Origin: Cryomorphaceae bacterium
GTDB taxonomy: Bacteria > Bacteroidota > Bacteroidia > Flavobacteriales_D > Crocinitomicaceae
Reading direction: 5' to 3'
Length of the DNA stretch: 36,715 nucleotides
Assembly: GCA_021300505.1 (NCBI GenBank)
Contig: JAJTDQ010000088.1
Coordinates: 1-36,715, forward strand
Below are positions 12,987 to 21,434 of this stretch, piece by piece. The position numbers and the translations under genes were made by a program. The notes under the pieces are model-generated. The model searched no databases. It worked only from the letters and a program-made list of their open reading frames with translations, and was not told where the DNA came from. Position 1 is the stretch's first letter. Each line of letters begins with the position of its first letter.

Positions 12987-14077
12987 TTAAGAATGGGCTG
13001 TTATGAATTCCGCAACTGATGCGCAGATAAAATCAAGTTGTTCTTGCTCCATTTCTGTATCAATACTGTTGATGCACTTCCGAAAGCAGAAAACATCTTT
13101 TGTCGGTGTGCCGGTACTGGGTAGTAAATCATAGATGGCACCTCTTTCGTAGCAAGAAAACTCACGAGCGCATCACGATCAATACCAGTCAGTTGCATGG
13201 TATATTGATGGAACACATGGCGAGATTCTTTACCTCGAACGGGGGTTTTTATTTGAGGGTAAGCCGCAAAAAACGCATCATAATGATCCGCAACTTTTCT
13301 GCGCGCATCGATGTAAGCATCCAAACGTGGCAACTTAATGCGAAGAATGGCCGCTTGAATGGTGTCTAAACGAGAGTTACACCCAACAACATCGTGGTAA
13401 TAACGTTGACTTTGTCCGTGATTCGCAATCATGCGCATCTTCGCTGCAAGCTCGTCGTTATTGGTGCAAATCGCACCACCATCTCCGTAGCATCCTAGAT
13501 TTTTTGATGGGAAGAATGAAGTACAACCGATGTCTCCAATGGTCCCGGTCTTTGAAACCGATCCATCGTTGTGGTAATAGTCACTGCCAATCGCTTGTGC
13601 ATTGTCTTCTACGACATGTAAATTATGCTGTTTCGCAATGTGCATGATGGCATCCATATTGGCTGCTTGACCATACAAATGTACAGGAACAATTGCTTTT
13701 GTTTTTTCTGTAATAGCAGCGTGGATGGTGTTGGGGTCAATACAAAACGTATCTGTATCTACTTCAACAAAAACAGGCTTTAAGCCAAGTAGAGCCATTA
13801 CTTCTGTAGTTGCGATATAGGTAAATGAAGGAGTAATTACCTCATCCCCTGGCTTTAAATCCAAGGCCATCAATGCTATTTGAAGTGCATCTGTACCATT
13901 CGCACACGGAATGACATGTTTTACACCTAGATATTCCTCCAATTCTTTTTGGAACAGTTGAACATCTGGACCGTTGATAAACTGCGCATTTTCAATGACA
14001 TTCATCAGTGCCGTATCAACCTCTGTTTTGATCTGCTGGTACTGTGTCATCAGATCGACCATTTGAATCTTTTTCAT
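12987..14077 (-). pseudogene. DegT/DnrJ/EryC1 aminotransferase, WbpE-like, frame-disrupted near the C-terminus
   Basis: PLP-fold motifs (CANGTDALQIALMAL, VEDNAQAIGS, SFFPSKNLGCYGDGGAI). After MFSAFGSA the annotated frame becomes non-family sequence (STVLIQKWSKNN*), while another frame reads IDTEMEQEQLDFICASVAEFITAHS* and stops at 12987, 7 bp before ugd. Confidence 0.85.
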
Positions 14078-14253
14078 TCAAGAATGCAATTAATCAGTTC
14101 AAGTGGACAAAGGTACGAATTCGATAGCGATTATGAGAAAAGACATTCAAAAAATGGGGGCTTGAATATGAGAATTCAATGAATTGACACAATCAAAGTG
14201 ACATTTTCCTCGTTTTTAACATTCACATCCTAAAATGACCTTAAATTTGAGCC

Positions 14254-15018
14254 ATGCTGCGGAAAATTGTTTTACTCACTTTCATTGCCCTTTCGCTCAC
14301 CATTGTTGGTCAGCGGAATGTGACAGACTCTATTATTGGAACACCCTGGGTTGGAGTTCATTACGGAGGGAACTGGACAGGTGGAGATTTGGCCAATCGC
14401 TATGGTTACTTAAATCATGCCGGATTTATGGCTGGATACAAAACAAACAAGAATGTGTATTTGGGAATGGAAGCCAATTTCATTTTCGGCAATGACCTAG
14501 ACACCTCTTTTAATCATATTTTTGACCACTTGTTAGATTCATATGGAAACATTACTGATGTAAACGGTGATATCGCTAAGGTATTGGTTTATTCCAGAGG
14601 AATGCATGTTAACCTCTCCATCGGTAAAGTCATACCCGTTTTATCTAGCAATAAAAACTCTGGAATTTTCCTTCACGGTGGAGTTGGACTTTTACTGCAT
14701 CGCTTGCGCATTGAAACACAAGATCAAGTTATTCCACAATTGGAGCTCGACTACAAAAAAGGGTATGATCGACTGTCTATAGGTCCTAACCTGCATCAAT
14801 TTGTGGGCTATGCCTTTTTAGCCGACGGTGGATATTACAACTTTTACGGAGGATTTTATTGTCAACAAGGGTTCACTAAAAATCAACGTACAATCAATTT
14901 TGATCAACCCGATGTGCCCGTTTCACAAAAAACAATGTTTGACCTCCAATATGGATTTCGTCTAGGTTGGTTTATTCCGTTCTACAAACGTGAAGTCAAA
15001 GATTACTATTTCGACTGA
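14254..15018 (+). CDS. Predicted outer-membrane beta-barrel protein
   Basis: Signal peptide (MLRKIVLLTFIALSLTIVGQ) and alternating amphipathic strands; overlaps the downstream waaA start. Confidence 0.65.
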   Translation: MLRKIVLLTFIALSLTIVGQRNVTDSIIGTPWVGVHYGGNWTGGDLANRYGYLNHAGFMAGYKTNKNVYLGMEANFIFGNDLDTSFNHIFDHLLDSYGNITDVNGDIAKVLVYSRGMHVNLSIGKVIPVLSSNKNSGIFLHGGVGLLLHRLRIETQDQVIPQLELDYKKGYDRLSIGPNLHQFVGYAFLADGGYYNFYGGFYCQQGFTKNQRTINFDQPDVPVSQKTMFDLQYGFRLGWFIPFYKREVKDYYFD

Positions 15019-16232
15019 TGTATTTGTTGTATAACATCAGCATTCACCTTTTCGGACTTGCCATTCGTTTGGCTTCGCTTTTCAATCCCAAAGCAAAGGA
15101 ATGGGTGAAGGGCCGCAAACATTACTTTTCACATCTTCCCGAATCGACTAAACCTGTCCTTTGGTTTCATTGTGCTTCTCTTGGAGAATTTGACATGGCC
15201 ATTCCTGTGATGCACGAAATGCGCGTCTCGCATCCGAACCATACCATTCTCGTTACCTTCTTCTCCCCTTCCGGAATGCAGCATTACCACAAAAGAAATC
15301 ACCCCGCCGACCTTGTACTTTATTTACCCATCGACACACCGAAAAATGCCAAGCGCTTTGTATCGCACTTTAAGCCAGAAAAAGCATTTTTTGTGAAGTA
15401 TGAGTTTTGGGCAAATTACCTTGACGCATTAAAAAAATCGGGGACTAGCGTTTTTTCCATATGCACTTTACTCCGCCCCGAGCATCGTTTTTTTCGCTGG
15501 TATGGTGGGTTTTTTCGACGATCACTGCGCAACTTTGACCATTTCTATGTTCAAAATGAAGCGACCAAGTCATTACTTCATTCTATCGGAATTAAACATG
15601 TGAGCATTACAGGCGACACCCGCTACGACAAGGTCATTGAAACCAGGGATAAACGAGAGCGTAATCCTAGGATTGAAGAGTTTTTACAAGGACAACAAGC
15701 CGTAATCTTTGGAAGCACTTGGCCACAAGATGAGGCGATCATTCTGCCTTGGATTGAGATCAACCCAACCATAAAATGCATCATTGCTCCGCATAATATC
15801 GATGCAGCACATGTTCAATCGTTGAAAAGAGCATTAGGGGAAAGTTGCATTCGTTTCACAGAAAAGGATACAAAAGATTGTCAGGTATTGATCTTGGATA
15901 CCATCGGACATCTATCAAGTGCGTATGGATCTGCGAAAATTGCCTATGTCGGTGGTGGGTTTTCTGGTAAACTTCACAACATTTTAGAGCCCGCTGTGTA
16001 TGGAATCCCGGTGCTTTTTGGTCCAAAGTTTAACCGTTTTCCGGAAGCACAACAATTTATTGATGCGGGCATTGGATTTTCCGTCTCAGACACGAAATCA
16101 CTTTCTGCAAGGATAACTGATGTCACAAGTCGTTTGAGTGAAATAAAAAACGAGGCAGACGCACTCATTCAACAAAACGCAGGAGCCGCAGTTCGTATCG
16201 CTGAACATCAACAATTGAATTTTCCTGCATAA
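15018..16232 (+). CDS. waaA: 3-deoxy-D-manno-octulosonic acid transferase
   Basis: WFHCASLGEF, VTFFSPSG, FVKYEFWANYLDAL, FGSTWPQDE, IIAPHNID, AYVGGGFSGKLHNILEPAVYGIPVLFGP. Confidence 0.92.
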   Translation: MYLLYNISIHLFGLAIRLASLFNPKAKEWVKGRKHYFSHLPESTKPVLWFHCASLGEFDMAIPVMHEMRVSHPNHTILVTFFSPSGMQHYHKRNHPADLVLYLPIDTPKNAKRFVSHFKPEKAFFVKYEFWANYLDALKKSGTSVFSICTLLRPEHRFFRWYGGFFRRSLRNFDHFYVQNEATKSLLHSIGIKHVSITGDTRYDKVIETRDKRERNPRIEEFLQGQQAVIFGSTWPQDEAIILPWIEINPTIKCIIAPHNIDAAHVQSLKRALGESCIRFTEKDTKDCQVLILDTIGHLSSAYGSAKIAYVGGGFSGKLHNILEPAVYGIPVLFGPKFNRFPEAQQFIDAGIGFSVSDTKSLSARITDVTSRLSEIKNEADALIQQNAGAAVRIAEHQQLNFPA

Positions 16233-16233
16233 A

Positions 16234-17034
16234 CTATCCATTCCAACTGAGGACTTCCAATTGTTTGTTTGACCTTGCCCTAAAAGACAATTGAACTTCA
16301 CGAATCATGCGTTCGATGGATCCCCACTTCGTCGTTCGGTGTCCCGCCAATGCAATAATTTCGCGCGCAGGATAATTTTTGCCAGCGCCCGAACGAATGT
16401 GTTTCAGAAAATCGCGTTGATTGAAACTGACCATCTGCGTGCGTAAACAATTTCCTTTGGTCAAAAGCCATGGATGTAAATCCGTCAACTGTGCGATATC
16501 GACCTCTGAAGTTTCAATTTCCTTTGTGTAGGCCATAATTTCCTCTTGGTACAATGGAATTGTTCGAAAAGATGGATCACTCACTGGTCCAGCAAGAATT
16601 GCCAAGTCCACTTGTTTATTCATCATCGCCACCAACAAATCTGGTGTACGCATCTCTTCAATGATCAATTGAACACCAGGTAAATGCGCCTTCCATTTCG
16701 TGAACAATTCTGGAATAAGGTAAGACGCCACAGTCGGAATCACACCCATTCGAATTTCTTCCTTGTAGGTTCCATTCCATTTGGCGGTAATCGTTGATAG
16801 GCGCTGCTCCTCGTTCAGAATATCGCGCAACACGGGAATCAATTCTTGACCGAAAAGTGTTAGTTCGACCGGATTTCTGTCGCGATCAAAGACTACATGT
16901 CCGAGCAGTTGTTCTGCTTTTTTTACCTGCATCGATAGCGTTGGCTGCGTTACATGGCAAAGTTCACTTGCCCGAACGAAATTTCTGGTTTCACTGAGCA
17001 CCACCAGATAGTGCATTTGTTGGATGGAAAGCAT
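16234..17034 (-). CDS. LysR-family regulator, OxyR-like, with apparently shortened effector domain
   Basis: N-terminal HTH (MLSIQQMHYLVVLSETRNFVRASELCHVTQPTLSMQVKKAEQLLG) and OxyR-like HPWLLTKGNCLRTQMVSF. About 266 aa from this start, shorter than usual for the family (~300-315). Confidence 0.85.
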   Translation of the reverse strand: MLSIQQMHYLVVLSETRNFVRASELCHVTQPTLSMQVKKAEQLLGHVVFDRDRNPVELTLFGQELIPVLRDILNEEQRLSTITAKWNGTYKEEIRMGVIPTVASYLIPELFTKWKAHLPGVQLIIEEMRTPDLLVAMMNKQVDLAILAGPVSDPSFRTIPLYQEEIMAYTKEIETSEVDIAQLTDLHPWLLTKGNCLRTQMVSFNQRDFLKHIRSGAGKNYPAREIIALAGHRTTKWGSIERMIREVQLSFRARSNKQLEVLSWNG

Positions 17035-17132
17035 ATAGATAAATTCAATGGAAGTATAAATATAATTGAAAAATACTATACCTATCACGATATACCTTCG
17101 AACCTATGAATTAATTACTAAAACGAAAGACC

Positions 17133-17432
17133 ATGAAAAAATTAATCCGCCGTTTGAAAAGACGCATTTTCAAGAAACCGAAGCATCAACTTGTCATCGT
17201 TAAAAAGGAAGCAGAAAGCATTGCCGAATCCATGGGAGTCGATATGTTCCGCTTTTCAATGCTCGAACAGATCTGCATTGTATCGCGCCATGAAAGCACA
17301 AGTAAGGTTTCTTGTTTCCAAAAAATCGTTTCGCATTGTGAAAACACGAATGAAATCGTTTTAATGATTTACTTGTTCGATAAAATTCTAGAAAATTACT
17401 ACGAACAAGTGCGGAAGGCTCACTTGAATTGA
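17133..17432 (+). CDS. Small basic protein of unknown function in the peroxide-stress locus
   Basis: 99-aa ORF with Lys/Arg-rich N-terminus between a divergent oxyR-like gene and a thioredoxin gene. Confidence 0.6.
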   Translation: MKKLIRRLKRRIFKKPKHQLVIVKKEAESIAESMGVDMFRFSMLEQICIVSRHESTSKVSCFQKIVSHCENTNEIVLMIYLFDKILENYYEQVRKAHLN

Positions 17433-17544
17433 GTCGAATTCACAAGCAATCAACTCATCGATTCATCCTATTTAAAAATAGATTAAATCGATAAAAACTA
17501 GTTATAACAACCCACTAATTTTGTTTCACAAAAAAATTAAAAAC

Positions 17545-17868
17545 ATGTCTAAATTGATCCAAATAACCCAAGAAAATATCAATGAGATTCTGAATGAATC
17601 TGAAAAAATTGTCGTGCTTGATTTTTATTCCCCAGGATGTGGTCCATGCGAAAGCCTTAAACCTATCCTAGAAGAATTAGCAGATGAGTATTCAGAAAAG
17701 GCAATCTTTGCAAAAATAAATGCTTTAGAATTCATGAATCTTGCGACGAAGAATCTCATTCGAGCAGTACCCCATGTGCTTATTTTTAAAACTGGAGAAG
17801 TAATTCAACACATTCCAAAAAAGCAAGACAGAGAAGTCTATAAAAAACACCTCGACGCGTTGATTTAA
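17545..17868 (+). CDS. Thioredoxin family protein (CGPC active site)
   Basis: VVLDFYSPGCGPCESLKPILEELADEY...AVPHVLIFKTGE. ATG at 17545 is more likely than the track TTG at 17521. Confidence 0.9.
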   Translation: MSKLIQITQENINEILNESEKIVVLDFYSPGCGPCESLKPILEELADEYSEKAIFAKINALEFMNLATKNLIRAVPHVLIFKTGEVIQHIPKKQDREVYKKHLDALI

Positions 17869-17949
17869 TTTTTCAACTTCGTCGTATGTATTCGAACCGA
17901 AAAGCAGTAAATTTGTTAACAGTTATATAAATCAACAATTCAATTAAAA

Positions 17950-18582
17950 ATGGGAGTATTAGTAGGCAAAAAAGCACCGTCTTTCAAGGCGTCAGCAGTA
18001 GTAAATGGCGGAGAGATCGTTAGCGACTTTTCATTGGACCGGTACATTGGTAAAAATCATGTGATTTTCTTCTTTTACCCGAAAGATTTCACGTTTGTAT
18101 GTCCATCTGAGTTGCATGCATTTCAGGCGAAGTTGGCTGATTTCGAAGCACGCGGCGTAAAAGTTGTCGCATGTTCAACAGACACAGAAGAATCGCACTG
18201 GGGATGGTTGCAAGTACCTAAAAACAAAGGAGGAATCGAGGGTGTTAAATACCCAATCGTTGCCGATACATCAAAAACAATTTCAGAAGCATTTGGTGTT
18301 CTTGCCGGAGAATATGAGTACGATATGGATGGTGCGTTGGTAGCAACAGGACCAATGATCGCTTACCGTGGTTTGTTCTTGATCAACAAAGAAGGTGTGG
18401 TTATGCACCAATTGGTAAACATGTTCCCATTGGGACGTAACGTTGACGAAGCGCTCCGTATGGTTGATGCACTTCAGTTCTTCGAAGAAAACGGCGAAGT
18501 ATGTCCAGCAAACTGGCAAAAAGGTGACGAAGGAATGAAAGCGAGCTTTGATGGCGTTGCTGATTACCTTGCTGCGCATTAA
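17950..18582 (+). CDS. Peroxiredoxin (2-Cys, AhpC/Prx1-like)
   Basis: FFFYPKDFTFVCPSELHAF and ENGEVCPANWQKG. Confidence 0.93.
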   Translation: MGVLVGKKAPSFKASAVVNGGEIVSDFSLDRYIGKNHVIFFFYPKDFTFVCPSELHAFQAKLADFEARGVKVVACSTDTEESHWGWLQVPKNKGGIEGVKYPIVADTSKTISEAFGVLAGEYEYDMDGALVATGPMIAYRGLFLINKEGVVMHQLVNMFPLGRNVDEALRMVDALQFFEENGEVCPANWQKGDEGMKASFDGVADYLAAH

Positions 18583-18596
18583 GCAAATATGAGATG

Positions 18597-18628
18597 AAAA
18601 AAAAGCTGCTGAAAAGCGGCTTTTTTTT
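18597..18628 (+). terminator. Rho-independent terminator after peroxiredoxin
   Basis: AAGCTGCT-GAAA-AGCGGCTT stem-loop followed by a T-run. Confidence 0.85.
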
Positions 18629-18720
18629 GACTAGATGTTAAGATATTAAGATTTCAAGATGTTAGGCCTACTTCTTCGCTCTATGAGCTTCGAAGTTTGA
18701 AAGACAAAAGACTTCGAAGA

Positions 18721-18752
18721 AGTTACTAATTACTAATGACGAGTTACGAGTT
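18721..18752 (+). repeat. Left inverted flank of the integrase/cassette island
   Basis: AGTTACTAATTACTAATGACGAGTTACGAGTT matches the reverse complement of 21403-21434 at 26 of 32 positions by hand alignment. Confidence 0.55.
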
Positions 18753-18757
18753 GGGGG

Positions 18758-18777
18758 GATTTACTTCAAAAAGTTAC
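18758..18777 (+). repeat. 20-bp direct repeat, copy 1
   Basis: GATTTACTTCAAAAAGTTAC, identical to 21189-21208. Confidence 0.8.
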
Positions 18778-18778
18778 G

Positions 18779-18804
18779 AATGACGAGGACTAATGACGAG
18801 GACT
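18779..18804 (+). repeat. 13-bp tandem repeat x2
   Basis: AATGACGAGGACT twice in tandem, followed by partial AATGACT. Confidence 0.8.
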
Positions 18805-18822
18805 AATGACTAAAAAGGAAAG

Positions 18823-18852
18823 AGGTTCAACTAATGGGTTGGACCTTTTTTT
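18823..18852 (+). terminator. Terminator-like hairpin upstream of the integrase
   Basis: AGGTTCAAC/GTTGGACCT stem followed by a T-run. Confidence 0.65.
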
Positions 18853-18936
18853 ATGTCAACTTTTTTTCATTTTTTCAACTCAAACACTTTTTCTAAATCA
18901 ACTTTTTCAATAACTTAAGTAGAAAATTGATTTTTC

Positions 18937-20064
18937 ATGTTACCCACTTTTCACCTCAATCGCCAGGAAATTGGCTTAAAAACCTACTATTACATCACCT
19001 TTCCATTCAACCGGGATTTGTATGCTTTGTTTCGTTCATTCGAACATGTTCATTGGGATAAGTACGAAAAATCCTTCGTATTTGACGAGAACGATTTGTC
19101 CATTGATTCGCTGCTTTCCCACGTTGAAGGAAAGGCGCAGGTTGAATTTCTTGAGAAACGATTAGAAAGTGTGGAATACAAGCGATCTCATTTGCGTCCT
19201 TCCGATTTTTTGGAACCCCTGGATGACATAAAGTCGCATGAAATTGTGCGTTTCGAGCATTATTTGCAATCAAAGCGCTACAGTTCGAATACCATCAAGG
19301 TTTACGCTGAAACCTTTCGTGTCTTTCTGCGCTACTTCGCGAGCAAAGCGATTGAAGAAATTAGCAATGACGACCTCATCGCTTTCAACAACGATTATAT
19401 TTTGAAGAATAATTTTTCTTCTTCCTACCAAAACCAGCTTGTGAATGCGGTGAAGTTGTATTATTCGGTGATTCAGCACAAGCGTATCGATGTGGAATTG
19501 GTGCATCGACCACGTCGAGAGAAAACCTTACCGAATGTGCTGAGTAAAGAGGAGGTGAAAAAACTATTAAATGCTTCAACCAATCTTAAACACAGAACAA
19601 TGCTATCATTAATCTATGCCTGTGGTTTGCGGCGCAGTGAATTGTTGAACTTAACTTTTAAAGACATACAAGCTGACCGACTAATTATTACTGTTCGACA
19701 ATCGAAAGGAAAAAAAGATCGAATAGTAACTTTGAGTCCAATGTTACTAGTAGAATTAAGACAATACTACCTTCAGTTTAGGCCACTAAAATATCTCTTC
19801 GAAGGACAGGTTGTAGGGGAAAAATATTCCGCTAGAAGTTTAGAGGAGATTTTAAAAAAAGCATGTAAAACAGCAAAAATCAACAAACCAGTTACTCTGC
19901 ATTGGTTAAGACATAGCTATGCAACACATTTATTGGAACGAGGAACTGATTTACGTTACATTCAGGAATTATTAGGACATAGTTCAAGTCGCACGACAGA
20001 AATATATACCCATGTGAGTATCAAAAGTCTAAGTCAGATTTGTTCACCTTTTGATGATTTGTAA
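18937..20064 (+). CDS. Tyrosine recombinase (Xer-like core) with ~80-90 aa N-terminal extension
   Basis: Catalytic set: ACGLRRSELL (R), QSKGKKDR (K), LHWLRHSYATHLL (HxxR), LGHSS (H), TEIYTHVS (Y). SAM-like N-domain (IVRFEHYLQSKRYSSNTIKVYAETFRVFLRYF) preceded by an extra N-terminal region. No obvious IntI-specific insertion between the K and HxxR motifs. Confidence 0.92.
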   Translation: MLPTFHLNRQEIGLKTYYYITFPFNRDLYALFRSFEHVHWDKYEKSFVFDENDLSIDSLLSHVEGKAQVEFLEKRLESVEYKRSHLRPSDFLEPLDDIKSHEIVRFEHYLQSKRYSSNTIKVYAETFRVFLRYFASKAIEEISNDDLIAFNNDYILKNNFSSSYQNQLVNAVKLYYSVIQHKRIDVELVHRPRREKTLPNVLSKEEVKKLLNASTNLKHRTMLSLIYACGLRRSELLNLTFKDIQADRLIITVRQSKGKKDRIVTLSPMLLVELRQYYLQFRPLKYLFEGQVVGEKYSARSLEEILKKACKTAKINKPVTLHWLRHSYATHLLERGTDLRYIQELLGHSSSRTTEIYTHVSIKSLSQICSPFDDL

Positions 20065-20090
20065 ATAACACACAATACATTTTCAAATTT

Positions 20091-20158
20091 ATTGAGCATA
20101 GCTAGCAAAGCGCTGTTTGTAAAACTCACTTTTTATAATTATAATTGAGCATATATAG
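20091..20158 (+). promoter_or_regulatory. Candidate attI-like region with two direct repeats
   Basis: ATTGAGCATAGCTAG (20091-20105) and ATTGAGCATATATAG (20144-20158), 13/15 identical; the second copy ends 2 bp before GTTAGTGGC at 20161. Confidence 0.45.
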
Positions 20159-20161
20159 AAG

Positions 20162-21160
20162 TTAGTGGCAAGGTTTAACCTATGCAACGAATAAATACAA
20201 ATCATTATGAAACGCATAAGAACATTAGGAAAAGGGGGACTAGGCATTGTGTCACTTTACCAATCTAACAACGGTCAGAATTTCGCTCTTAAACAGATGC
20301 TTTACCAATGGGACGAGAATTACTACGAGCGTTTTAAAAGAGAGGTTGAGATAATGGCTACTCTTGTTCATAAGAATATCGTCAATGTTTTGAATTTTAA
20401 TATTCTCAACAACAATCCATGGTATTTAATGCCATATTATGAAGATGGTAGCCTGAGAGATAAATTGATGGATATAAAAAGTAAGGGACAGATATATTCG
20501 TTAAAAGGTGCAACCGGAATTATTTACCAACTAGCCGATGCATTGCATCACGCGCATGAATTTGGCGTTATACATCGAGATATAAAACCTGAAAATATAT
20601 TATTCAATGGAAAGGATCCAGTAATAGCTGATTGGGGTCTTGGAAAATTCATTCATAAAAAAAGTAAAGTACTAACTAATGTTGGCCTTGGAACAAAGTC
20701 TTATTGCTCACCTGAACAGTGGGAAAGTGGTGTTTCTGACAGCCGTTCAGATATTTATTCACTCGGTTTAGTTTACAGAGAATTATTAACGGGATCGCTA
20801 ACAGGTCAAATACAAGAAAGAAGAATTAATGATATTGTAAACAAAATGACGGCAACAAGCCCAGCTGATCGTTATCAAAGAATGAGCGAGGTAAAAGAAG
20901 CCATAAGAGCTCTAAATGAAATATCCACCAGCGACCCGATGAAAGATTTTTGGGAAGGTGTTATTGCAGCATCAGCAGTGGTTGGAATTGCAATTCTATT
21001 GGCTAAACTAATTGAAAATAAATGAAAACCCAGCCACTAACAGCACCTACCCAAAAGGCGGGGTTTCGTGTTCTAAAGACAGTTTTGTGGTTAATCAAAC
21101 ATTAGTTTTTCAAATCAAGTTTTGTGGTAAAAGTCCCGCCCTTCGGGTAGCTGCAAACCG
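20162..21160 (+). mobile_element. Putative integron-type gene cassette carrying a protein kinase gene
   Basis: Boundaries G|TTAGTGGC (20161/20162) and G|TTATGTGCC (21160/21161). The attC-like R'' end GCCACTAAC (21033-21041) is the exact reverse complement of the 5' boundary GTTAGTGGC. Confidence 0.6.
20207..21025 (+). CDS. Hanks-type Ser/Thr protein kinase with C-terminal TM segment
   Basis: LGKGGLGIVSLY, FALKQ, VIHRDIKPENILF, ADWGLGKF (DFG replaced by DWG), GTKSYCSPEQW; C-terminal hydrophobic GVIAASAVVGIAILLAKLI. Confidence 0.92.
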   Translation: MKRIRTLGKGGLGIVSLYQSNNGQNFALKQMLYQWDENYYERFKREVEIMATLVHKNIVNVLNFNILNNNPWYLMPYYEDGSLRDKLMDIKSKGQIYSLKGATGIIYQLADALHHAHEFGVIHRDIKPENILFNGKDPVIADWGLGKFIHKKSKVLTNVGLGTKSYCSPEQWESGVSDSRSDIYSLGLVYRELLTGSLTGQIQERRINDIVNKMTATSPADRYQRMSEVKEAIRALNEISTSDPMKDFWEGVIAASAVVGIAILLAKLIENK

Positions 21161-21169
21161 TTATGTGCC
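21033..21169 (+). repeat. attC-like imperfect palindrome (cassette recombination site)
   Basis: Left arm GCCACTAAC-A-GCACCTACCCAAAAGGCGGG; reverse complement of right arm GGCACATAAC-GGTTT-GCAGCTACCCGAAGGGCGGG. The inner 20-bp arms match at 17/20 by hand; total ~137 bp. Confidence 0.6.
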
Positions 21170-21188
21170 AATTATTGCACTTCACAGA

Positions 21189-21208
21189 GATTTACTTCAA
21201 AAAGTTAC
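21189..21208 (+). repeat. 20-bp direct repeat, copy 2
   Basis: GATTTACTTCAAAAAGTTAC, identical to 18758-18777. Confidence 0.8.
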
Positions 21209-21236
21209 AAGTTACTAAGACGAGTTAGGAGTTAGC

Positions 21237-21393
21237 AATTCCCGAAGGGATCCCGCCACAGCGGACTTGACAGCAAATTGACGCAGCATTCAGCCGCGGC
21301 TGACAAGCATTACAAATTCCCGAAGGAGTCAAATTCTAAATTCCCGAAGGGATCAAATTGCGAAGCATCAAATTTTTAATTCCCGAAGGGATC
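21237..21393 (+). repeat. Cluster of four AATTCCCGAAGGGATC units
   Basis: Copies at 21237-21252, 21315-21330 (one variant), 21339-21354, 21378-21393. Each contains a TCCC-GAA-GGGA mini-hairpin. Confidence 0.85.
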
Positions 21394-21402
21394 AAATTTG
21401 CA

Positions 21403-21434
21403 AACTCGTAATTCGTAATTCGTAACTTATAACT
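21403..21434 (-). repeat. Right inverted flank of the integrase/cassette island
   Basis: AACTCGTAATTCGTAATTCGTAACTTATAACT; reverse complement resembles 18721-18752. Confidence 0.55.

Follow-up and report, generated by a model that had tools for sequence, protein, structure and literature searches.

In the 36,715-nucleotide stretch of Cryomorphaceae bacterium DNA analysed here (contig JAJTDQ010000088.1, hereafter the window), a tyrosine recombinase gene, an attI-like motif, a protein kinase gene and a long imperfect palindrome follow one another on the forward (+) strand, and the locus very probably works like an integron: a chromosomal island with a single cassette, belonging to an integron-type system of gene capture in Bacteroidota. 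From the sequence comparisons it is an integron variant and not a canonical integron, as its integrase lacks the I2 region of IntI and its sites do not follow the GTTRRRY core.

This reading is carried above all by the complementarity between the two ends of the cassette. The cassette boundary GTTAGTGGC begins at 20161, and the left end of the palindrome, GCCACTAAC (21033-21041), is its exact reverse complement, as claimed in an earlier note on this DNA, which had also placed the recombinase, the boundary, the kinase gene and the palindrome where we find them. The 9-bp match reported there is real and in fact extends further: the 15-nt R′ box at the 5′ boundary, GTTAGTGGCAAGGTT (20161-20175), within whose GTT the crossover presumably falls, agrees at 13 of 15 positions with GTTAGTGGCTGGGTT, the reverse complement of the left (R″) box AACCCAGCCACTAAC (21027-21041), or at 13 of 14 when one systematically mismatched position is left out. 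When 20065-20900 was base-shuffled 2000 times, the best match obtained was 12, short of the 13/14 seen here, and every other place on the whole plus strand of the window scores 11 or less against the left box. The right end of the palindrome, GTTATGTGCC (21160-21169), is unlike the boundary; over its full length (GTTATGTGCCAATTA, 21160-21174) this right (R′) end matches the left box at 7 of 14 scored positions, and it reads as part of the DNA downstream of the kinase cassette, not of the cassette itself. The asymmetry that the earlier note had predicted from a cut inside R′ is therefore present, the left arm fitting the cassette's own 5′ boundary and the adjacent right end not. When integron crossover takes place in GTT, the R′ half of the site on a free circle derives from the cassette's own 5′ end, and own-end pairing of the kind seen here therefore follows.

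The same rule is kept in the arrays of other genomes. Array sites were located solely by the asymmetry of their spacers and by complementarity inside the AAC...GTT limits, which leaves the outer bases free for an own-end test. For 52 consecutive pairs in loci of the window's family, the left arm matched the 5′ end of its own cassette at 5.31 of 8 positions and the adjacent right end at 2.85, while 2000 permutations gave a mean of 2.69 (sd 0.17, maximum 3.40). Much the same was obtained for 82 pairs in 20 stretches from other Bacteroidota families (own end 5.20/8, adjacent end 2.94, shuffles 2.65 with a maximum of 3.17); many of the failing pairs probably lie across long gaps where a site was missed. 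A chance inverted repeat was considered and is ruled out by the shuffles and by the own-end rule in arrays. A mere dispersed palindrome, whether REP- or terminator-like or a miniature element, with the 9-bp match arising by chance, would suit the near-identical copies in many genera and the diverged copy between genes in the window's own genome. We find this hardly credible, however, as the complementarity is to the far and not the adjacent end in two sets of arrays, the shuffles fail to reproduce it for the window, and cassettes are replaced between the same kinds of points.

The length of the pairing box was examined in 84 cassettes selected on positions 1-6 after GTT only. Positions 9, 10, 11 and 12 match in 85, 89, 77 and 63% of them and position 13 in 7%; position 8 matches in 1% and is unpaired in 83 of the 84. 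Since the match drops at position 13 and position 8 stays unpaired, the box consists of GTT and 12 further nucleotides with an obligatory mismatch, 15 nt in all. The base directly after GTT is a purine in all 84 cassettes, and the R′ core GTTRRRY is not followed, with a pyrimidine as the second base in 52/84 and a purine as the fourth in 47/84.

The palindrome itself, previously given as about 137 bp, is present, and is better delimited as a 124-bp AAC...GTT site at 21039-21162, which scores 115.1 bits against R1, a covariance model of the Bacteroidota sites. Its core is a 20-bp inner helix formed by the L″ arm (21043-21062) and the L′ arm (21135-21154), with a left spacer of 1 nt and a right spacer of 5 nt, and homologues of the site in other genera are 90-98% identical. 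Across 38 sites the register of the helix is kept and double changes are found at all 20 pairs; the covariation score is 0.609, as compared with 0.152 (sd 0.015) for shuffles and 0.086-0.117 for slid structures, and 212 double-change cells are observed against 66.7 in shuffles. A fixed A.C mismatch at column 19/132 occurs in 34 of the 38 top strands and corresponds to a bottom-strand G.T wobble. When extrahelical bases were looked for, no constant bulge was seen in the inner helix, the fixed mismatches and the 1/5-nt spacer asymmetry being found in its place. A short-loop class of sites, about 68 bp, also exists.

The folding energies point to the bottom strand. With its in-array ends the window site folds to −23.4 kcal/mol in the bottom strand (z −3.26) and −13.8 in the top strand (z 0.06), and when rebuilt as a free circle to −31.9 (z −5.63) and −22.6 kcal/mol, respectively. 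The bottom strand is the more stable one in 80 of 84 rebuilt circles; for the inner site alone this holds in only 23 of 38, a weak bias, so that the preference is clear only with the cassette's own 5′ box in the fold. The circle form folds better than the array form in 83/84, a result that is partly built in because the cassettes were selected on matching ends. With an imperfect palindrome, R and L boxes and a predicted bottom-strand fold, the site has the make-up of an attC. The attC-like bottom-strand fold on which the earlier note had let its reading depend is present, and the covariation is strong.

The same data bear on whether the host XerC/XerD or the island recombinase moves double-stranded cassettes at dif-like sites, in the manner of pdif modules, the hairpin having some other role. 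The integrase is indeed Xer-like in the length of its catalytic part, has no I2, and the AAC/GTT core is short. Yet the sites are not dif-like elements of about 28 bp: they measure about 124 bp (about 68 bp in the short class) and contain an inner helix, whose 20 pairs change in a compensatory way between constant unequal spacers. The bottom-strand bias of the rebuilt circles and an own-5′-end pairing for which double-stranded recombination would have no obvious need also speak against it, and we consider this explanation very unlikely.

Integron-like behaviour further calls for an insertion point beside the integrase, and a metagenome contig, L006, identifies one. It is 98.2% identical over 1462 bp to window positions 18703-20164, covering the integrase region and the next ~100 bp; the two are alike up to the boundary GTTA, save two or three bases just 5′ of it, and then the DNA differs. 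In place of the kinase, L006 carries an unrelated 191-aa gene and a hairpin of its own, the left arm of which agrees with the 5′ boundary of L006 at all 14 scored positions. The genes flanking the island (window 13061-18628) are only 83-90% identical to L006 and the integrase segment about 98%, so that this segment is more conserved than its surroundings, which suggests that the integrase and attI segment was recently exchanged. The contigs L006 and L007, both titled Chitinophaga pinensis, look mislabelled, as they are syntenic with the window and their near relative L008 is titled Crocinitomicaceae.

The first boundary was predicted in 28 loci by means of the first hairpin's left arm. It lies 71-119 bp 3′ of the integrase stop codon in 14 of them (10-14 of 14 positions matching); in L007, L008, L087 and L088 an extra gene intervenes and the distance is about 920-940 bp; in the remaining loci it is farther off, at an intermediate site, or without a convincing match. 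Alignment of 14 loci gives the attI-like motif TATANNNAA followed by GTT, in which TATA, three variable bases and AAGTT stand 5′ of the crossover, TATA and AGTT being invariant. In the window this is TATATAGAA followed by GTT (20152-20163), 96 bp 3′ of the integrase stop codon. With its conserved distance and motif, and with the L006 cassette swapped exactly there, this position has the sequence properties of an attI site. Two side observations were made close to it. A gene encoding MNTIKLFESKNIRSVWNEAEDKWYFSV..., antirepressor- or Bro-N-like by eye, stands between the integrase and the first cassette in L007, L008, L084, L086 and L087 and puts the boundary some 930 bp 3′ of the integrase stop codon, and a short near-perfect hairpin (GGATGCATTATGCATCC in L009) lies just 5′ of the attI-like site in L009 (6892-6959), L011 (6867-6934) and L013 (6894-6961).

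Arrays of exchangeable cassettes are, from the same type of comparison, present in relatives: 84 cassettes were verified, whose median length is 1.1 kb and of which 78 have a co-oriented main open reading frame, and unrelated genes are separated by the same hairpins across Bacteroidota. One cassette is common to genome G077 of the window's family and genome G332 of another family in the same class, at 97% identity over 1316 bp; the identity starts and stops at CGTT, and a wider comparison found no similarity beyond. The relatives thus supply what the earlier note had looked to them for, namely cassette replacement (in L006) and arrays (in many families). Judged from these genomes, the cassettes are shown to be mobile units with a GTT at either end, and they follow in one orientation on an attI-like motif 3′ of a particular tyrosine recombinase.

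The cargo is varied. Among 83 cassette proteins scanned, no Pfam family occurs in more than three. Some are close to known defence genes, including AbiU (E 8e-129), Drt3b (E 1e-211), TmtA (E 0) and methyltransferases, matches that do not amount to a frequency because the proteins were picked for their defensive look. The window cassette encodes a Ser/Thr protein kinase of 272 aa (20207-21025; Pkinase E 1.2e-40), which was found as a cassette in no other of the 143 genomes of the family; its best PADLOC matches, PD-T4-6 (E 1.9e-44) among them, are defence profiles of the kinase type, which is not diagnostic, as many Ser/Thr kinases would match. A second, diverged site was seen in the window's own genome, between genes (G000:C57:448-481, L002); the gene after it starts MEKKTLSNILEGKIFQIPDYQRGYAWEAKQW, nearly the same start as that of a GmrSD/DUF262-like cassette protein (L169) from another family.

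The integrase (375 aa, 18937-20064), in the same orientation as its cassette, matches Phage_integrase with E 5.6e-38 and NF040815, 'site-specific tyrosine recombinase/integron integrase', with 224.5 bits (cut-off 220); against TIGR02249 it scores 202.6, under the cut-off of 265. Residues R232, K257, H322, R325, H348 and Y357 are invariant across 16 relatives. From the KxxxR motif to LRH there are 61 residues, and 60-62 in all array-head integrases, as compared with 102 in 16 gammaproteobacterial IntI proteins and 64-68 in Xer; this difference from IntI means that a segment of ~40 residues with I2 is absent, and the alignment to IntI 2a3v likewise skips residues 181-244. The earlier note's suspicion that the recombinase lacks the IntI insertion is borne out, as is its term non-canonical integrase. 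The best solved-structure matches are 4a8e and 5hxy (archaeal XerA/Xer). In a tree, the Bacteroidota integrases together with cassette-borne recombinases form a third group beside the IntI and Xer groups; as the tree has three groups and its root on Xer is an assumption, we make no claim as to whether they are sister to IntI.

The first ~72 residues of the integrase form a separate domain (residues 1-72, 18937-19152). A profile built from the N-terminal domains of 14 relatives finds the HARP domain of SMARCAL1 (4o66) as the best of 177,635 PDB sequences (E 8.3e-4), and a Foldseek search with a model of the domain (pLDDT 89) also puts 4o66 on top, with a probability of 0.94 but an E-value of 0.036, a TM-score of 0.44-0.49 and an rmsd of 7.8; XPB entries come next at lower probability, and Pfam HARP gives no match to the domain. 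The profile recognizes 23 of 26 array-head integrases at E <1e-6, some from families f6 and f25 among them, a count in which three sequences are in or very near the set used to build it. It has no match in IntI or Xer.

Taken together, these results lead to a mechanism in which the adjacent recombinase would recognize the folded bottom strand of the site on a circular cassette and join it to attI at GTT, the resulting junction being resolved as in integrons, while excision and shuffling would proceed via pairs of attC-like sites; the kinase would be the current cargo only. We infer, as a less certain step, that the HARP-like N-terminal domain may recognize folded or junction DNA and so fill the role of the I2 helix, the title of PDB entry 4o66 describing HARP as a substrate recognition domain.

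At a threshold of E 1e-5 or better, R1 sites were found in 186 of 396 Bacteroidota genomes (104 of 172 genera) and in none of 143 Gammaproteobacteria. Where a locus has both, the sites lie 3′ of the integrase and co-oriented with it in all but one of ~28 cases, the exception being the divergent G117. Several observations nevertheless weigh against the integron reading. The window holds one cassette, so that array behaviour is taken from relatives. Only 48 of the 64 site-bearing genomes of the family have the integrase (Fisher p 0.009), a moderate association, and several arrays have none in the stretch examined (for example, G523). Further recombinases (289-300 aa) are present in some arrays and might be active on part of the sites. 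Finally, a 17-bp perfect direct repeat, TTACTTCAAAAAGTTAC, on both sides of the island (18761-18777 and 21192-21208, with no further copy in the window) is unexplained by an integron.

The moderate association and the arrays without a nearby integrase would be expected if these integron-like sites were moved not by the neighbouring integrase but by a canonical IntI, encoded elsewhere or on a vector. However, no IntI-type match at E 1e-60 exists in 144 genomes of the family, while the same search, as a positive control, finds IntI in 95 of 229 Gammaproteobacteria, and the distance from the integrase stop codon to the first boundary is conserved in several families. This alternative therefore seems to us very unlikely, and we keep to the adjacent integrase as the probable enzyme of an integron-type system.

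The 289-300-aa recombinases lie inside arrays (L093 13325 and 16963, L094 4934, L100 2530), each by its own hairpin of 119-133 bp, and a dozen almost identical ones occur in G077; these genes may represent self-mobile cassettes. As for the direct repeat, its upstream copy is also in L006, and in a search of the window's own genome with a longer pattern around the repeat the upstream copy was the sole match. No tRNA- or Rfam-type structures were detected in the window. The transporter gene downstream of the island sits on other contigs in relatives, so that no empty-site comparison is available there.

Beyond this locus, it is quite possible, and we propose it tentatively, that Bacteroidota harbour a widespread integron lineage of their own in which an I2-less integrase acts on folded single-stranded sites with HARP-like recognition and a 15-nt box that pairs better in the circle than in the array. 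If true, a natural I2-less cassette system would represent either another route to single-stranded hairpin recombination or a pre-I2 state, a question that is testable, and Bacteroidota would hold many integrons with anti-phage and other cargo, probably missed by searches requiring I2. A review lists Bacteroidota among the integron-bearing phyla (PMC8618304), and a large survey counted one complete integron in Bacteroidetes proper (PMC9024848). Only sporadic integrons are reported for Bacteroidota in the open papers searched, in which we met no description of this system, preprints and most subscription papers being outside our search.

Among known systems, SMARCAL1 HARP (PDB 4o66), the best profile and fold match of the integrase N-terminus, is part of a helicase-type protein; we met no description of HARP fused to a tyrosine recombinase, in a literature search that was not aimed at it. 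Archaeal XerA and Xer resemble the integrase in KxxxR-LRH spacing (64-68 against 60-62), but Xer resolves dimers at dif, whereas the Bacteroidota gene heads cassette arrays. In the Xer-pdif modules of Acinetobacter plasmids (PMC7399989), genes also lie between short sites and are moved by Xer-type recombinases; pdif sites, however, are short and double-stranded, unlike the long hairpins, own-end pairing and dedicated integrase found here. Also comparable are the published simple tyrosine recombinases near IntI, in which the insertion is not fully conserved and which are possibly the same proteins; in the accessible part of that paper the insertion is called essential for integron function, and no I2-less member is tied to cassettes. 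The I2 helix, through which integron integrases are said to have become able to recombine single-stranded hairpins, is described for these enzymes only, and removing it leaves IntI1 inactive (PMC4792948, PMC7790495).

With integrons (IntI/attI/attC; class 1 and sedentary chromosomal) the Bacteroidota system shares an integrase gene with an adjacent attI-like site, a 3′ imperfect palindrome, the GTT crossover triplet, own-5′-end complementarity, a bottom-strand fold, and varied, mostly co-oriented cargo including defence genes. It differs from them in its integrase, which lacks the I2 segment and usually has a HARP-like N-terminus, and in its layout, integrase and cassettes being divergent in integrons and mostly co-oriented here. 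Its sites are also distinct, with a 15-nt cassette-specific box whose position 8, counted from GTT, is an obligatory mismatch, no GTTRRRY at R′, unequal spacers of 1 and 5 nt, and an R1 model that matches nothing in the 143 Gammaproteobacteria.

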